This document shows, piece after piece, positions 2,239-53,824 of a stretch of 64,000 bases of DNA. Within the stretch, counting starts at the first letter, position 1. Every line of letters starts with the position of its first letter. Source of the stretch: Aurantimicrobium photophilum. Lineage in GTDB: Bacteria; Actinomycetota; Actinomycetes; Actinomycetales; Microbacteriaceae. The stretch is from contig NZ_CP023994.1 in NCBI RefSeq assembly GCF_003194085.1, forward strand, positions 372,001 through 436,000, given 5' to 3'. Below the pieces are notes generated by a model, which did not search any database, was not told the DNA's origin, and was given only the letters and a program-made list of their open reading frames with translations. Both the position numbers and the translations under genes were made by a program.

Positions 2239-3738
2239 ATGTCGACCCTCAGTAACATCATGGAATCCCAAGGAATTGGCTCCGCAGCCGATATTGAATG
2301 GCTCCACATGCTCATTGGGGACTGGCAGCTCATTGCTGACCTCGCATTTGCGGACATTGTTCTCTGGGCGCCCACCCAAGATGGTTCCTTCGTTGCGGTT
2401 TCCCATGCTCGTCCCTCCAGCTCAGCAACATTGTTCTATCGCGACTTCGTCGGCCAAAAAATCAAAGCTGAATGGCGCGCACAGGTAGGCGAAGCTTACG
2501 AAACCGCGAGCATCATCGAGTCCTCTTCCCCAGCTTGGTATGAAGAGACCCCTACTCGCGTTCGTGCGGTGCCTGTTATCCGCCGCGTGCGTCAGGGCTC
2601 GACTGACTCCGCACCGAGTAGCCCCATTGCTGTCATCTCCCTTCACACCAATCTCTCTGAGAGCCGTTCACCCAGTCGTCAGGAAATGACCTTCAATTCC
2701 TGCGCCAATGACCTCTTTGACATGATTGCCTCCGGTGACTTCCCAGACCTCGACGCAGCACCTTCACCACGCCGTGGAGCGCCTCGTGCAACAGACGGTC
2801 TTATTCGCCTGGATGTTGACGGTGTTGTCACCTTTGCCAGCCCCAACGCTCTCTCTGCCTTCAACCGCATCGGCTTCGCCGATGAGCTGGAAGGCGAGTC
2901 GCTGGCCGAGGTCACCACTCGTGTGCTCACAGGCAAGATCAATGTCGATGAATCACTTCCTGTTGTTGTCACGGGCCGTGCACCCTGGCGCGCTGACATT
3001 GAAGCCCGTGGTGTGACTGTTTCCTTGCGCACAATCCCTATTCGCCACCTCGGTGAGCGAACCGGTGCGATTGTGCTTTGCCGAGACGTCACAGAGCTGC
3101 GTCACCAAGAGATGGAGCTCATTACTAAGGACGCCACCATCCGTGAGATTCACCACCGTGTGAAAAACAATCTCCAGACAGTTGCTTCGCTTCTGCGTAT
3201 TCAGGCACGCAGAACCCAATCAGACGAAGCACGTGAAGCACTCACACAAGCAATGCGCCGTGTTGCCTCCATTGCCGTTGTTCACGACACCCTTTCTGAA
3301 GGTCTCACCCAAAATGTGGACTTCGATGACGTTTTCAACCGCGTACTGATGCTGAGCGCTGAAGTGGCTGCTATCCACGGCACCACCGTTCACCCACGAC
3401 TCACCGGAAGTTTTGGGGTGCTTCCTAGCGGCTATGCCACACCTCTAGCTCTGGCACTCACAGAACTGGTTACCAACGCGGTAGAACACGGCCTGGCAGG
3501 CCGTGAGGGCACTGTTGTTATTGAAGCGAATCGTTCCGAAGAACTTCTTACCGTCCACATCGTGGACAACGGAACCGGTTTGCCTGAAGGAGCTATTGGA
3601 GATGGTCTAGGAACACAGATTGTGAAGACACTCATTCAAGGTGAGCTCAGTGGATCTATTGAGTGGAATGCTGCTGCCGAAGGCGGAACCGATGTCTTTA
3701 TTGAAATTCCTCTCCGTTTCGCTAACGTCATTGACTAG
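2239..3738 (+). CDS. pdtaS: PdtaS-like sensor histidine kinase
   Basis: A 499-residue soluble kinase. An N-terminal GAF-like domain (about 20-155) precedes a PAS-like segment (about 185-290, RLDVDGVVTFASPNAL). A HisKA_2 dimerisation box follows with the phosphoacceptor in EIHHRVKNNLQ (303-313). The C-terminal HATPase domain has the N box LTELVTNAVEHG, the G1 box DNGTGLP and a second Gly-rich GDGLGTQ. This layout is that of actinobacterial PdtaS, which phosphorylates the ANTAR antiterminator PdtaR. No pdtaR is visible nearby, so the partner must lie elsewhere. The start is the ATG set by the leaderless promoter just upstream. Confidence 0.88.
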   Translation: MSTLSNIMESQGIGSAADIEWLHMLIGDWQLIADLAFADIVLWAPTQDGSFVAVSHARPSSSATLFYRDFVGQKIKAEWRAQVGEAYETASIIESSSPAWYEETPTRVRAVPVIRRVRQGSTDSAPSSPIAVISLHTNLSESRSPSRQEMTFNSCANDLFDMIASGDFPDLDAAPSPRRGAPRATDGLIRLDVDGVVTFASPNALSAFNRIGFADELEGESLAEVTTRVLTGKINVDESLPVVVTGRAPWRADIEARGVTVSLRTIPIRHLGERTGAIVLCRDVTELRHQEMELITKDATIREIHHRVKNNLQTVASLLRIQARRTQSDEAREALTQAMRRVASIAVVHDTLSEGLTQNVDFDDVFNRVLMLSAEVAAIHGTTVHPRLTGSFGVLPSGYATPLALALTELVTNAVEHGLAGREGTVVIEANRSEELLTVHIVDNGTGLPEGAIGDGLGTQIVKTLIQGELSGSIEWNAAAEGGTDVFIEIPLRFANVID

Positions 3739-3767
3739 CCTTCACAGTCAATTCCGAGCCATCTGGC

Positions 3768-3866
3768 TAGAATAAAAGGGAAATGGACGACCCCCCGCCT
3801 GCCCGAACCAGTGACAATTCTTCGTCACTGATGATTTTCGAGCGTGGTGAATCTCATGTTTGCTGA
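3768..3866 (+). promoter_or_regulatory. Probable promoter and possible leaderless leader ORF before the CNNM genes
   Basis: TAGAAT at 3768-3773 is followed after 9 nt by an ATG (3783) opening a 27-codon frame that ends at TGA 3864-3866, inside the start of the first CNNM gene in another frame. The inverted repeat AGTGAC/GTCACT (3810-3815, 3824-3829) lies in this leader. If the short frame is translated, its stop would couple to the GTG at 3844 or ATG at 3856. Coding potential of the short frame is not shown. Confidence 0.35.
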
Positions 3867-5175
3867 GTGGGTAGCTTTCGCAGCCGGTTTAGTTCTTACG
3901 GTTGGGACGGGTTTCTTCGTCGCCGCGGAGTTTGCTCTGGTCAATCTTGACCGGCCAGAACTTGAAGCCCAACGTGATCGTGGCGTTCGAGGCTTAGGCC
4001 TCACCATCAAGGCATTGACCATTACGTCAACCCACCTCTCCAGTGCACAGCTGGGTATCACGTTGACGACGCTCTTGACAGGTTTCTTGATGGAACCTGC
4101 GCTTTCAGCGCTGCTTTTCCAGCCACTTTCGGCTTTGGGGTGGAACGAAGCAGTTATTCGCACCGTCGCCGGAGTGAGCGCCGTTGTCATTGCCACCGTG
4201 CTTTCCATGATTGTGGGAGAACTCGTTCCCAAGAACTTTGCCTTGGCATTACCGCAGGCAACAGCGAAGGTTGTAATCCCTTTCCAGACACTTTTCACCA
4301 CGGTGTTCAAGCCACTCATCGCAGTTCTCAACGGTCTCTCAAATGCGGTACTTCGAAGCTTCGGTCTTGAGCCCAAGGAAGAGCTTTCAGGAGCTCGATC
4401 GGCAGAGGAACTCTCGTCTCTCTTGCGGCGCTCCGCAAGCGAGGGCGCCCTCGAGGAAGACACCGCAACACTGTTGGGCAAGACACTTGCGTTTAGTGAA
4501 CTTTCTGCCAGTGATGTGATGACGCCACGTTTGCGCATTGAATCACTGGAACCAGGAGATTCTGCACGTGCCGTACTTGAGTTGGCCCGTAAGACCGGTT
4601 TCTCTAGATTCCCCGTCACTGAGGATGGCCTCGACGACGTCGTGGGTATTGTTCACGTCAAGAACGCGATTTCAGTGCCGAGGGAACGTCGCAACGACGT
4701 TCCTGTCTCGGCGCTGATGATTGAACCCTTACGCGTCCCAGACACCATGTCCCTTGATGCTTTGCTTGCAGAACTTCGTGGCAAGGGTCTCCAGATGGCT
4801 ATCGTCGTTGATGAATACGGTGGCACGGCAGGTATCGCCACTCTTGAAGACCTCGTTGAAGAACTTGTTGGTGAGGTCGCAGACGAGCATGACCGCACCC
4901 GTGCTGGTGTTGTCAGCTCTGCCGACTACCTCACCTTCCCAGGATCACTTCGACCAGACGAGCTGGAGGAGCGTGCCGGAATTACCGTTCCGGAAGATGA
5001 CAATTACGAAACCGTGGCCGGTTTTGTTATGAGTCAACTGGGACGCATTCCGGAACAAGGTGACATCGTCACTGTTCCCGAAGGTGAATTCAAGGTGGTC
5101 CGCATGGACGGCCGTCGTATTGACCGTCTTCGTTTCACGCCCGTTGTTGTTGAAGTGGGTGAGAGTAATGAGTGA
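3844..5175 (+). CDS. CNNM/CBS/CorC_HlyC membrane protein (hemolysin-family)
   Basis: 443 residues in the order typical of the family. A CNNM transmembrane domain (about 1-190) has the conserved FVAAEFALV near the start and [12 protein letters not shown] later. A CBS pair follows (about 215-345, [57 protein letters not shown]). The last 80 residues form a CorC_HlyC domain. Members are linked to Mg2+ (or other divalent) transport; the old hemolysin name is not evidence of haemolysis. GTG 3844 or ATG 3856 can be the start. The next gene overlaps by 8 bp and is a paralogue, so the two probably form a heteromeric pair. Confidence 0.88.
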
Positions 5176-50268: not shown

Positions 50269-51653
50269 TGCCGAATGTTCTCATTGTCACAGGAGATACT
50301 TTGGGCGCTGCAATGGCAGGTCCAGCAATCCGAGCCCTTGAGATGGCAAAAGCTCTTTCTCAAGTTTCCACTGTCATTCTTGCCGCAACCGTGCCAACAA
50401 CTTTTGTGCACGACGGTTTTGACGTAGTCGATGCAACGGACAGCAACCTTCGTGGACTTGTGAGATGGTCGGACATCATTGTGTTCCAAGGCGCTCTGCT
50501 GTCAACACATCCGTGGATCGCTAAGACGGACAAAATTATTGTTGCCGATGTCTATGACCCGATGCATTTAGAGACCTTAGAGCAACAAAAACACATTCCA
50601 GCAGGAATACGTTTCGTTGAAACCTTGGATATTGTTGCCATCTTCAATGAGCAACTCGTACGAGCAGATTTTTTGCTTTGTGCTTCAGAAAAACAAAGAG
50701 ATCTCTGGATCGGCCAACTTGCTTCTGTAGGTCGCTTAAACCCACTCACCTACGACCGCGACACAAGTCTAAGAACTTTAATCGATGTCGTTCCTTTTGG
50801 AATTCAAGAAGCACCACCTCAGCAACACAAGCATGGGATTCGTGGGGTCATTCCTGGAATTGGAATGGATGACAAAGTCGTTCTATGGGGTGGGGGAATC
50901 TACAACTGGTTTGACCCACTCACATTAATCCTTGCAATTGCGAAGGTCTCCCAAAGTCACCCAGACATCAAACTTGTATTTATGGGAACTCAACATCCCA
51001 ATCCACATGTCCCCGAAATGAAGATGTCTTTTGAAGCACGAGAGCTCTCGAAAGAACTTGGTCTGGAGGGTAAACATGTTTTCTTCAATGAGGGTTGGGT
51101 GCCTTATAACGAAAGAGCTGATTTTCTCTTAGATGCTGATCTTGGCGTAAGTACCCACCTTGATCATTTGGAAACCGCATTTAGTTTCCGAACTCGTATC
51201 TTGGATTATCTCTGGGCAGGCTTGCCGATTGTCGCGACGAGTGGAGACACTTTTGAAGCGATTATTGAATCAAACATTCTTGGAAAAACAGTTCCGCCAG
51301 GTGATGTAGAGCACCTTGCTTCTGCAATCACAGAACTGCTCTACGACCAGAAGCTTTCACAGGCAGTTCGAGTAAACGTGAATCACTACTCAAGAAATTT
51401 AAAATGGAATTTAGTACTTCAGCCACTGATTGAATTTGTAATTGCCTCCCAACATGCAGCAGATTACAACAGCGGATTCTCTCTAGGCATCACCAAACTC
51501 GCACATGTTGGGAGACGAACACTGAGGCAGAGGATCTTCATGTATTCGCTAAGTGTCAAGTTGAATGGCTTCAAGTATTCAACTGATTTGTTCTTGAAAA
51601 ATCTCTTTGGGAAAACACTGAGAAAATTCAAAAAACTAATTCACGTCGATTAG
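50268..51653 (+). CDS. Family 4 glycosyltransferase
   Basis: 461 residues, GT-B fold. GDTLGAAMAGPAIRALEMAKAL at the N-terminus and VVLWGGGIYNWFDPLTLILAIAKV starting the donor domain. FSFRTRILDYLWAGLPIVATSGDTFEAII contains the nucleotide-sugar contact region. The C-terminal 60 residues are basic and may bind the membrane. Last gene of the glycan locus, directly followed by the tRNA-linked insertion array. Confidence 0.82.
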   Translation: MPNVLIVTGDTLGAAMAGPAIRALEMAKALSQVSTVILAATVPTTFVHDGFDVVDATDSNLRGLVRWSDIIVFQGALLSTHPWIAKTDKIIVADVYDPMHLETLEQQKHIPAGIRFVETLDIVAIFNEQLVRADFLLCASEKQRDLWIGQLASVGRLNPLTYDRDTSLRTLIDVVPFGIQEAPPQQHKHGIRGVIPGIGMDDKVVLWGGGIYNWFDPLTLILAIAKVSQSHPDIKLVFMGTQHPNPHVPEMKMSFEARELSKELGLEGKHVFFNEGWVPYNERADFLLDADLGVSTHLDHLETAFSFRTRILDYLWAGLPIVATSGDTFEAIIESNILGKTVPPGDVEHLASAITELLYDQKLSQAVRVNVNHYSRNLKWNLVLQPLIEFVIASQHAADYNSGFSLGITKLAHVGRRTLRQRIFMYSLSVKLNGFKYSTDLFLKNLFGKTLRKFKKLIHVD

Positions 51654-51657
51654 ACAA

Positions 51658-51673
51658 CAAGTGCCCTCGAGAG
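51658..51673 (+). repeat. 16-bp tRNA-derived direct repeat, copy 1
   Basis: CAAGTGCCCTCGAGAG, identical to 52037-52052, 53369-53384 and 53748-53763. The last of these is the native site: 12 bp of the 3' end of tRNA-Arg plus 4 bp downstream. This copy marks the outer edge of the insertion array and still has the original flank on its left. Confidence 0.9.
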
Positions 51674-52036
51674 TGTCTAGGTTCACGACATCGTTGATAT
51701 CTCTCCCACAACATCGTTGATACTCCAACCCTGACCGCGCTGAACCCCTCGGGGGTTCACATTTCGATGTCTTGCAACATTGATCAAGGAATTTGATATC
51801 TGTTCTGCTTGAGACGAATCGATTCGTTCACTTCAAGCTAAGAAACCTACATCCGCGCTGGTGCAAGACAAGATGGCAGATTCACTTCATCGGCTTCTTG
51901 CCCGCCAAGCAGCGCTAGTGCGGTGCTCTAAATCAACGGGGCATCAAGGAAATAATCCAACAGGCATGATGCGACAACTCGTTGCAATAACAACGAAGTC
52001 TCGAGGCATATATCAACTATGTCTCGAGACTTCACA
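51674..52036 (+). mobile_element. 363-bp non-autonomous IS481-like element, copy A
   Basis: Starts TGTCTAGGTTCACGAC and ends with TTCACA, the complement of TGTGAA. The two 27-bp ends match at about 20 positions, with the shared inner block GACAT(C/A)GTTGATAT. No credible gene is inside. It has an 8-bp hairpin TGAACCCC/GGGGTTCA (51741-51759) and a 14-bp palindrome ACGAATCGATTCGT (51814-51827). Copy B (53385-53747) has the same length and differs at about two bases. Flanked by 16-bp direct repeats. Confidence 0.75.
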
Positions 52037-52052
52037 CAAGTGCCCTCGAGAG
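52037..52052 (+). repeat. 16-bp tRNA-derived direct repeat, copy 2
   Basis: CAAGTGCCCTCGAGAG between element A and the transposase-bearing IS481 element. Confidence 0.9.
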
Positions 52053-53368
52053 TGTCTAGGTTCACGACCTTGTTGACACATGAGTCGCGTCCTTATTAAC
52101 ACTAGATGAGTCGCGTCCTTGTTGACACTCTGGAGCAATGTCGAAACAACGCGTCGTCGTCCTCTCTATCGTCCACCAAGGCCTAACAGTCACTGAAGCA
52201 GCCAGAACTCATGGCTTCTCCAGAGCCCATATCTACACCCTCCTCAAGCGTTATCAAGAAGGTGGCCTTGACGCTGTCGAACCTCAATCGTCCAGGCCGA
52301 AGTCCTCACCACATGCCCTCAGCGATGAACTGCGTTTGCGCATTATTCAATTGCGCATCCATCTCGATGCAGAAGGACTCGATCATGGACCTGAAAGCAT
52401 TCAACCCTTCCTCACTACTGAAGGCTTCACCGCGCCGTCCACATCCACAATCAGACGTGTTCTCCACCAGGCAGGACTCATCACCCCGGAGCCGAAGAAA
52501 AGACCTAAATCTTCTTTCCTCAGTTTCGAAGCAGACCAACCCAACGAAACCTGGCAGTCGGATTTCACCCACTGGTCATTAGCTGACGGGCGCGATATTG
52601 AAATCATTAACTGGCTCGATGACCATTCCAGAAAGCTACTTTCCATCACGGCCTATGACCGCATCACCGGCCCCATAGTTGTTGAAACATTCACGGCAAA
52701 CATCAACAAATACGGGCCTCCCCAGTCCACACTCACCGACAACGGGGTTGTTTACACTGCTCGCTTCACCAAAGGCAAAAACGCGTTTGAATACTTCTTG
52801 GCAGAGCTTGGAATCGTTCAAAAGAACGGCAAGCCCTACCATCCTCAAACCCAAGGCAAAATCGAACGCTTCCACCAAACACTGAAAAAATGACTGCGCA
52901 GCAGAGAACCAGCACACACTCTCGCAGAACTCCAACAACAACTCGATGAGTTCCAAGAAATCTATAACCACCACAGACCACACCGCGCATTGGGCAAAAG
53001 AACACCCGAAGAGGTTTATCAAGCTGGAGTGAAAGCACACCCCGTCAAAGAATCCGTTTCACACGACTGGCGCACCCGCTATGACAAAGTCGACAAAGGA
53101 GGAAAACTCACCCTCAGACGCGCAGGAAAACTTCACCACATGAGCGTCGGCGCGGCACATGCCGGAGAAGAAGTTCTTATGTTGATCGACCAAACAACCG
53201 TCATCGTGACACTGCAACACAGTGGAGAAGTCCTCAGTCAACATCACATAGAACCAGAAAGAAACTACTGGCGAGACCAACTAAAAAGTCCAGGCCGATG
53301 GCCTGGACTTTCATAATTTTGTCAACAAGGTCGGGACTCATCTGTCAACAAGGTCCCGACTCATCACA
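52053..53368 (+). mobile_element. IS481-family insertion sequence, 1316 bp
   Basis: Ends TGTCTAGG... and ...CATCACA. The left end and the reversed right end share GACCTTGTTGACA and then ATGAGTC at the same distance from the tip. Each end carries a second inner copy of the ATGAGTC...CTTGTTGACA block (about 52106-52129; 53319-53342), likely extra transposase sites. The first 16 bp are identical to those of elements A and B. Flanked by the 16-bp direct repeats. The transposase has an in-frame stop. Confidence 0.85.
52138..53316 (+). pseudogene. IS481-family transposase interrupted by an in-frame TGA
   Basis: An intact frame would give 392 codons. TGA at 52891-52893 stops it after 251 residues; the same frame continues homologous to the end at 53316 (LRSREPAHTLAELQQQLDEF, then YNHHRPHRALGKRTPEE). 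The stop most likely replaces TGG (Trp) of the family's ERFHQTLKKWL. The HTH (LTVTEAARTHGFSRAHIYTLLKRY) and all three catalytic residues (WQSDFTHW, TDNGVVYT, QGKIERF) come before the stop. Whether the 251-residue form works is unknown. TGGAG precedes the ATG. Confidence 0.88.
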
Positions 53369-53384
53369 CAAGTGCCCTCGAGAG
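53369..53384 (+). repeat. 16-bp tRNA-derived direct repeat, copy 3
   Basis: CAAGTGCCCTCGAGAG between the IS481 element and element B. Confidence 0.9.
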
Positions 53385-53747
53385 TGTCTAGGTTCACGAC
53401 ATCGTTGATATCTGTCCCACAACATCGTTGATACTCCAACCCTGACCGCGCTGAACCCCTCGGGGGTTCACATTTCGATGTCTTGCAACATTGATCAAGG
53501 AATTTGATATCTGTTCTGCTTGAGACGAATCGATTCGTTCACTTCAAGCTAAGAAACCTACATCCGCGCTGGTGCAAGACAAGATGGCAGATTCACTTCA
53601 TCGGCTTCTTGCCCGCCAAGCAGCGCTAGTGCGGTGCTCTAAATCAACGGGGCATCAAGGAAATAATCCAACAGGCATGATGCGACAACTCGTTGCAATA
53701 ACAACGAAGTCTCGAGACATATATCAACTATGTCTCGAGACTTCACA
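53385..53747 (+). mobile_element. 363-bp non-autonomous IS481-like element, copy B
   Basis: Near-identical to element A. Near its right end a 16-bp perfect stem (53706-53721 with 53729-53744, loop TATCAAC) replaces a one-mismatch stem in A. Transcripts of the tRNA gene, running leftward, enter this hairpin within about 8 bp of the tRNA end, and it is followed on that strand by a T-rich stretch, so it may act as the tRNA terminator. Confidence 0.75.
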
Positions 53748-53763
53748 CAAGTGCCCTCGAGAG
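53748..53763 (+). repeat. 16-bp repeat copy 4: native target at the tRNA-Arg 3' end
   Basis: CAAGTGCCCTCGAGAG covers the acceptor 3' strand, discriminator and part of the T arm of tRNA-Arg, plus four downstream bases. Confidence 0.9.
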
Positions 53764-53824
53764 GATTCGAACCTCCGACCTTTGGTACCGGAAACCAATG
53801 CTCTATCCCCTGAGCTACGAGGGC
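53752..53824 (-). tRNA. tRNA-Arg (anticodon CCG)
   Basis: 73 nt on the minus strand. Acceptor GCCCTCG pairs with CGAGGGC, followed by discriminator A; CCA is not encoded. D stem GCTC/GAGC, anticodon stem TTGGT/ACCAA around loop TTCCGGT with anticodon CCG, and T arm GGAGG-TTCGAAT-CCTCT. The last 12 nt lie in the 16-bp repeat shared with the insertion array, so the gene is intact despite three insertions at its end. argS starts 60 bp away in the other direction. Confidence 0.95.

Follow-up and report, generated by a model that had tools for sequence, protein, structure and literature searches.

IS481-family insertion sequences stacked at a tRNA-Arg(CCG) gene of Aurantimicrobium photophilum, and recurrent insertion of their relatives beside the tRNA T-arm

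The window analyzed here is a stretch of 64,000 nucleotides (nt) from the genome of Aurantimicrobium photophilum (contig NZ_CP023994.1, positions 372,001 to 436,000, forward strand), and it contains an array of three elements resembling insertion sequences (ISs) of the IS481 family, stacked against the 3' end of a transfer RNA (tRNA) gene, tRNA-Arg(CCG). A 16-mer, CAAGTGCCCTCGAGAG, occurs in the window in four exact copies (at 51658, 52037, 53369, and 53748), against a mean of 0.03 expected in shuffled sequence with up to two mismatches allowed, which rules out chance repeats. From left to right, the order is 16-mer, 363 base pairs (bp), 16-mer, 1316 bp, 16-mer, 363 bp, and a last 16-mer overlapping the tRNA gene end. 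All three elements have TGTCTAGGTTCACGAC at the left end and ...TCACA at the right. This is the layout given by the original prediction, made from the sequence of the window: four identical 16-mers bounding elements with a common start and CACA-like ends, the fourth copy being the 3' end of the tRNA gene. On the left of the array is a reading frame stopping at 51653, on the right the tRNA gene; the features are as follows.

51658..51673, no strand: distal copy of the target duplication, CAAGTGCCCTCGAGAG, 4 bp past the stop codon of the frame ending at 51653
51674..52036, plus strand: first 363-bp element, TGTCTAGG...TTCACA, without a transposase frame (sequence, reading-frame list)
52037..52052, no strand: second copy of the target duplication (repeat search)
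52053..53368, plus strand: 1316-bp IS481-family element, TGTCTAGG...TCACA (ends, comparison with the genome copy)
52138..53316, plus strand: transposase frame with two helix-turn-helix (HTH) units and an RNase H-type DDE-beta domain, TGA at 52891-52893 (family models; fold from a relative)
53285..53311, plus strand: terminator-like 12-pair hairpin ending the transposase frame, of putative function (scan: 2 sites against a shuffle mean of 2.6)
53369..53384, no strand: third copy of the target duplication (repeat search)
53385..53747, plus strand: second 363-bp element, adjoining the tRNA side (sequence comparison)
53748..53763, no strand: tRNA-proximal copy of the duplication, tRNA positions 62-77 (numbered by hand from the T-loop)
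53751..53824, minus strand: tRNA-Arg(CCG), the target, sequence intact (tRNA search)
53764..53773, minus strand: T-arm GATTCGAACC (tRNA sense GGTTCGAATC), immediately beside the cut (sequence)

Positions 62-77 of tRNA-Arg(CCG) take in the 3' half of the T-stem, the acceptor 3' strand, the discriminator, and four flanking nucleotides. The present-day gene includes the tRNA-proximal 16-mer copy only. The proposal that a 16-bp duplication spares the gene is thus borne out in that the tRNA sequence is whole, and the gene presumably still functions. The two 363-bp elements differ from each other at two positions; the reading-frame list holds no transposase frame inside them, and we therefore take them to be non-autonomous.

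The one long frame with family matches in the 1316-bp element encodes the transposase, which scores 258.6 bits against the IS481 model NF033577 (cut-off 224) and carries rve domains, so the assignment to an IS481-type DDE transposase stands. In a second genomic copy of the element the frame is open and 392 amino acids (aa) long. Residues D142, D201, and E243 are invariant across 34 aligned relatives, and we assign them as the probable RNase H-type DDE catalytic triad. For L073, a close relative, an AlphaFold model (mean predicted local distance difference test score 82.7, from an alignment of 34 rows) would, by our reading of its domains, begin with helical units and continue through an RNase H-like core to a beta domain at the C-terminus. 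Its nearest solved structures are ShCAST TnsB (E 8.5e-16), IS21 IstA, and MuA, with low overall TM-scores (0.3-0.4 by query length), probably because the domains are differently placed. With its single long frame occupied by the transposase, the 1316-bp element showed no TnsC ATPase and no TniQ/TnsD target selector. Nor was a Cas1-type integrase found, that frame having DDE rve domains, or a tyrosine or serine recombinase, the short frames not having been searched against families.

A DNA search of the genome found one other full copy of the 1316-bp element (G000:C1:303734-305049), with five differences from the window copy. This second copy occupies the tRNA-Thr(CGT) 3' end, where the 16-bp duplication beside the T-arm, ATGGGGCCGCCTAGGG, is exact; this differs from the window 16-mer and yet covers the same tRNA positions. 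A 376-bp relative of the 363-bp elements, also without a transposase frame, lies at tRNA-Ser(GGA) (L041, ~1794-2169; G000:C1:265793-266168), where the duplication pair has diverged (13/16 alike, three mismatches); this is presumably an older insertion. The element left end has five exact matches in the genome, all at three of the 41 tRNA genes, none with one or two mismatches, and 20 with three mismatches, compared to 20 in the whole reversed control. We also looked downstream of the tRNA genes for copies of positions 62-77, 38 of the 41 being testable with 1.0 to 3.6 kb of flank (39 tests, as one gene was tested twice). Such a copy is joined to an element end at three of the 38 (Arg, Thr, and Ser); five other tests gave a downstream copy with three or four mismatches and without an element end. 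As the duplications differ and the place in the tRNA is the same, it is a tRNA-gene position that is targeted, and one fixed 16-bp target sequence is ruled out. The outcome that the original prediction named as fatal to it, copies at unrelated sites with short duplications, is not what the genome holds: all five left ends are at tRNA genes, with 16-bp duplications. Three copies of another, partly similar transposase gene (346-aa frame) had no tRNA in the surrounding stretches scanned.

At E <= 1e-30, relatives of the transposase, counting the sister group treated below, are present in 45 of 299 family genomes; the family and class searches drew samples from larger groups, and from a collection of species genomes the best 80 of 147 relatives were used. 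All loci were oriented by the transposase, and records of at least 210 bits are here called clade A (n = 143). The 22 records below 210 bits, among them L210, which adjoins a tRNA-Pro, are outside this count. Clade A hosts are mostly Actinomycetota, plus bins labeled Chloroflexi and Armatimonadota. After setting aside ten records that end at a contig end and four that are truncated, 129 have a usable right end. In 103 of these, the right-end ACA lies 15, 16, or 17 bp (50, 51, and two records) before a strict opposite-strand T-arm motif, so that the transposase gene converges on the tRNA. The same rule is satisfied by none of 118 stretches taken 900-1300 bp further out and by two of 1,290 shuffles, which rules out chance matches; the counts depend on our motif rules. 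A tRNA on the left side within 450 bp was seen in just two of the 143 records (L140 and L147.1). Clade A ends read TGT... on the left and, in reverse complement, TGTgatG... on the right, the right ends having been selected by the ACA rule.

The 103 records represent 95 unique insertions (L048.1, for example, is the same place as L176.1). Complete tRNA genes are the targets of 84, covering 14 amino-acid types and 26 anticodons, and tRNA 3' fragments of ten; the last (L100), whose contig stops 38 nt past the element, was counted as neither. Insertion at tRNA 3' ends, as first proposed for the window, is thus repeated across many kinds of tRNA. A left-hand duplication is present in 73 of the 95 (up to five mismatches allowed) and exact in 55, with lengths of 15 bp (28), 16 bp (26), and 17 bp (one); there are 53 different duplicated sequences. 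Where the tRNA is complete and the two copies differ (15 pairs), the differences are in most pairs confined to positions 75-77, and all seven acceptor pairs are kept in 15/15 tRNA-proximal and 14/15 distal copies. We had considered drift of the distal copy as an argument and dropped it, since differences mostly at 75-77 are little informative. The other 26 usable records were divided by hand from printed flanks and tRNA calls: 17 (13 places once duplicates are removed) have a further element next to them, four (L084, L101, L104, and L152) have a tRNA missed by the motif, L084 being disturbed by N letters, and five are taken up below.

Among 72,556 plasmid records, one (L211, NZ_CP012477.1, a 754-kb Arthrobacter megaplasmid) carries a relative at E <= 1e-60, and it too is at a tRNA 3' fragment. 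None of 50,697 phage records has a relative at E <= 1e-30, and the four stretches of viral contigs that fit a peptide pattern were not confirmed as relatives.

Within the insertion site, the duplicated letters vary freely, and the ten letters adjoining them are the T-arm, six positions of which are invariant in 96 of 96 rows (two are required by the motif, and others partly). The ten fragment targets, together with the one on the Arthrobacter megaplasmid, resemble tRNAs (library of 132 tRNA sequences) over 24-47 nt, T-arm included. In the shortest (L137), little is left beyond the acceptor 3' strand and the T-arm; in L177, the match starts within the duplication and takes in the T-arm, and the outer acceptor letters differ. 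Since 3' fragments are used, a complete tRNA gene is not required as target, and a second clade (clade B, described further on) is in keeping with this. The original prediction had a DDE transposase recognizing the tRNA 3' end. Its tRNA position stands, and the target is better described as the T-arm beside the cut than as the duplicated sequence; that the transposase itself reads T-arm DNA is what we infer.

A T-arm-like stretch in the element left end (GGTTCAC, resembling GGTTCGA) was considered and set aside, as its conserved core, TTCA-N-GAC, mostly reflects an imperfect inverted repeat. One clade A element (L172, ~2800-4209) sits at a tRNA 3' fragment, after which comes a tyrosine integrase gene (PF00589), as at the attachment (att) site of an integrative element; this arrangement is a possible ride for horizontal transfer.

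Re-entry into the same place, suggested by the window array, is seen repeatedly. Ten tRNA loci have at least two elements: the window and nine others (L048/L176, L051/L182, L067/L183, L070/L185, L076, L078, L146, L147, and L171). The second element is a deleted copy in L078 and has no transposase match in L171. Two further loci (L082 and L121) show element after element, the contig ending before any tRNA. Some stacks hold clearly different elements (L048/L176, L070/L185, and L076). If every insertion restores the target on the side of the tRNA, stacks are to be expected, and for the same reason the tRNA-proximal element would be the youngest. L146 and L147, both on OX638350.1, are stacks at tRNA-Met and tRNA-Arg that hold similar element copies, and the duplication of the other tRNA reappears at one inner L146 junction, a sign that the stacks may have recombined.

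Empty versions of the site, which the original prediction proposed looking for, exist in the genus. In five of seven other genomes (L154, L155, L161, L162, and L163), tRNA-Arg(CCG) is free of elements: the core GCCCTCGAGAG occurs just once in the locus, and around it these congeners have other letters than the 16-mer. In a sixth (L156), ARAGORN calls the tRNA and our motif did not match it, and the seventh gave a weak match only.

We conclude that the array very probably consists of three IS481-type insertions at one re-usable site, with a single DDE transposase joining the ends beside the T-arm and gap repair restoring the tRNA. The transposase (two N-terminal HTH units, RNase H core, and C-terminal beta domain) would bring the TGT/ACA ends to the T-arm of a tRNA gene and join the first end beside it, between positions 61 and 62, and the second end 15-16 bp away, just beyond the tRNA 3' end. 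Gap repair would then copy positions 62-77, the tRNA-proximal copy completing the gene. With T-arm and 3' end rebuilt, a fresh target would be present, and the next element would go between the tRNA and the older elements. The 363- and 376-bp elements, which share the outer left end, would be carried along by the transposase.

Several observations weigh against this interpretation. The transposase frame in the window is broken by an in-frame TGA at 52891. Taken alone, T-arm conservation next to the cut is little proof, because letters are fixed by the motif and all tRNAs share the T-arm. The five records deferred above represent four insertions (L055, L063/L186, L122, and L127) that have a readable right end and no tRNA or T-arm; they are either off-target insertions or cases of flanks exchanged later, and unless the latter holds, clade A specificity is strong rather than absolute. 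Finally, a host factor or the palindromic shape of the T-arm, rather than its reading by the transposase, could guide insertion.

Targeting by DNA shape, in which a palindrome or hairpin (T-arm and stem) beside the cut matters rather than the T-arm letters, is the alternative we take most seriously, although we think it doubtful. The T-arm comes close to a palindrome, one insertion of a sister element (L196), judged by eye, is likewise flanked by inverted repeats, and IS481-family elements of Pseudomonas fluorescens sit in repetitive extragenic palindromic (REP) sequences (PMC11708052; here and below, statements on published work refer to the portions of the cited papers available to us). Against it, hairpins outside tRNA genes were not seen to carry a clade A insertion, in a survey that was not systematic and did not include the four insertions without a T-arm. 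It is improbable that a host protein or process at tRNA genes guides the elements, a role that has been suggested as possible, not shown, for XerC at dif in the ISAjo2 group of the IS1202 family (PMC10132070). Ten insertions used fragments without a complete tRNA gene, the shortest with 24 nt of similarity, and a need for tRNA transcription or processing is disfavored by such targets. We also know of no bacterial T-arm DNA-binding factor. That the window array arose by tandem duplication or misassembly is very unlikely. The 363-bp elements differ at just two positions, so that either may have been copied from the other by recombination, and the L146/L147 junctions suggest that stacks recombine; however, the middle element is different and has the same duplication, the genome carrying the array is a single contig of 1.748 Mb, and stacks in other genomes combine clearly different elements. 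Passive movement by a tyrosine integrase is scarcely credible. Such enzymes classically use tRNA 3' ends, and the integrase gene at L172 fits that picture, but TGT/ACA ends, one DDE gene, and fixed-position duplications in 14 tRNA types are unlike a one-tRNA att core, and no integrase frame is seen inside the window elements.

Our search of the open-access literature found no IS481 or other simple IS reported as tRNA-gene-specific; preprints, ISfinder, TnPedia, and most subscription journals lay outside its scope, so single members may already be known. The elements share with IS481 the transposase family, the TGT/ACA ends, and a single DDE gene. IS481 duplications are given as 2-15 bp, mostly 6 bp and several ~15 bp (ISfinder as cited in PMC10045372), and the 15-17 bp of clade A are at or just past this range. 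The original prediction held IS481 duplications to be mostly shorter than 16 bp, which is right for the majority; ~15 bp was, though, already listed for some members. In target choice they differ from other family members, as ISLxc2 and ISRe46 use NCTAGN (PMC2516522, PMC6794481) and the P. fluorescens element uses REP sequences with a 4-bp duplication (PMC11708052), compared to tRNA genes here. The word "tRNA" is absent from the main text of PMC10045372, PMC2516522, and PMC6794481. PMC9569102 and PMC3751702 treat IS elements and tRNA in actinobacteria, and the portions available make no link from IS481 to tRNA targets.

The ISAjo2 group is also a simple IS with one TnsB-like transposase, believed to make the site choice, and with a fixed target and orientation (PMC10132070). 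Its members, however, hunt the Xer sites dif/pdif with a 441-457 aa transposase and a 5-bp duplication, as against the T-arm, 392 aa, and 15-16 bp here; no search for dif sites was made. Among eukaryotic DDE transposons, Dada elements are specific to tRNA or small nuclear RNA genes (PMC3706591). They belong to another transposase group and make a 6-7 bp duplication inside the gene, each family having its own tRNA, whereas the elements described here use many kinds of tRNA, always at the 3' end, and leave the gene sequence whole. Tn7-like elements likewise use tRNA genes as attachment sites (PMC11406308). They and the CRISPR-associated transposons share with our elements a fold-related DDE transposase, TGT/ACA ends, and tRNA attachment sites, but select targets by TnsD/TniQ or a guide RNA, where here there is one gene. 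Casposons lie at tRNA gene 3' ends in some genomes; these are large elements with a Cas1-type integrase, in contrast to a DDE transposase and a 1.3-kb IS. They, too, insert with a target duplication (PMC6614799, PMC4046053).

Three distant relatives (L188, L200, and L201; 30%-34% identity) have the tRNA on the other side, and they prompted a search for a second clade. A search of 345 class genomes with one of their proteins (P0002) gave matches in 24, including a group with long frames; an earlier one, of 199 family genomes at E <= 1e-80, had returned the query's own genome only. Clade B, as we call it, comprises 17 loci: the three above plus 14 new ones (L213-L224, L236, and L241). All 17 elements immediately follow a tRNA 3' end, oriented oppositely to clade A and with the register shifted by ~6 bp; counted from the first T in the T-loop of the tRNA, which is on the same strand, each element starts after 29-30 nt. 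In L213, L219, and L220 another TG is closer, and the TG fitting the element start was used. The ends join at about tRNA 67|68 and 82/83. Duplications of ~15-16 bp are found in eight of the 17, two of them with one mismatch; the repeat reported for L224 is internal and was left out.

The relatives with long frames (587-612 aa from the match start; 15 loci, L225-L235 and L237-L240) have 14-16 bp duplications in eight of 15, and these are not beside a T-arm. In 16 long-frame loci, the 260 bp to the left hold no T-arm (there is hardly any left flank in L235), nor does ARAGORN call a tRNA beside any of them. Four copies (L228, L229, L238, and L240) have a similar stretch, like TTGNNNNNGTAGGGAAAG, starting 30 bp before the duplication; this is perhaps another fixed target. 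In the sister group of clade A, six insertions (L072/L191, L192, L193, L195, L196, and L197) have 14-15 bp duplications away from any T-arm, and no long duplication was found in the other sister loci (L190, L194, L198, L199, and L202-L204), the repeats at L194 being an artefact of a missing left flank. The sister and long-frame insertions rule out the idea that all long-duplication IS481 elements are at tRNAs.

A tree of 80 proteins, built by a quick method with a short search and a long outgroup row, has clade A as monophyletic (45 rows; support 97 by the Shimodaira-Hasegawa-like approximate likelihood ratio test, SH-aLRT). Clade B (13 rows) has support 90, the long-frame group (11 rows) 93, and the other long-duplication group (ten rows) 100; clade A pairs with the last (95) and clade B with the long-frame group (99). 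Because both sister groups have 14-16 bp duplications away from tRNAs, the long duplication is probably ancestral and tRNA targeting probably arose twice, to judge from these protein sequences, though there may have been a single origin followed by losses. We lean toward a broader view in which two clades of long-duplication IS481 elements independently gained single-protein T-arm recognition, in opposite orientations and registers, which would open to them, whatever the host, dozens of safe and re-usable sites in each genome, as well as att sites.

Simple insertion sequences are usually viewed as near-random or short-motif inserters that are able to break genes. Here, one protein appears to target the same position in many tRNA genes, repeatedly and with the genes unbroken, across many actinobacterial genomes. 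This would add a DDE transposase to the tRNA 3'-end specialists, next to integrases, casposons, and CRISPR-associated transposons, and T-arm recognition by a small transposase becomes open to direct testing. If the interpretation is right, the T-arm, the most uniform DNA motif of tRNA genes, is read by one simple enzyme, and bacteria have a counterpart of the eukaryotic tRNA-targeting transposons and a compact, general site-specific inserter, with entry into those att sites of integrative elements that derive from tRNA genes. Such a system suggests small tools for safe-site DNA insertion, and it is also a source of tRNA 3' repeats that could pass for integrase att sites.

Beyond tRNA-Arg(CCG) in the window lies an arginyl-tRNA synthetase-like frame, so named from reading its translation. 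On the other side of the gene, directly downstream of it and on the tRNA strand, the end of the tRNA-proximal 363-bp element (53704-53746) could form an 18-pair hairpin; such hairpins are not above the shuffle mean, and this one may have a role in ending or processing the tRNA transcript.

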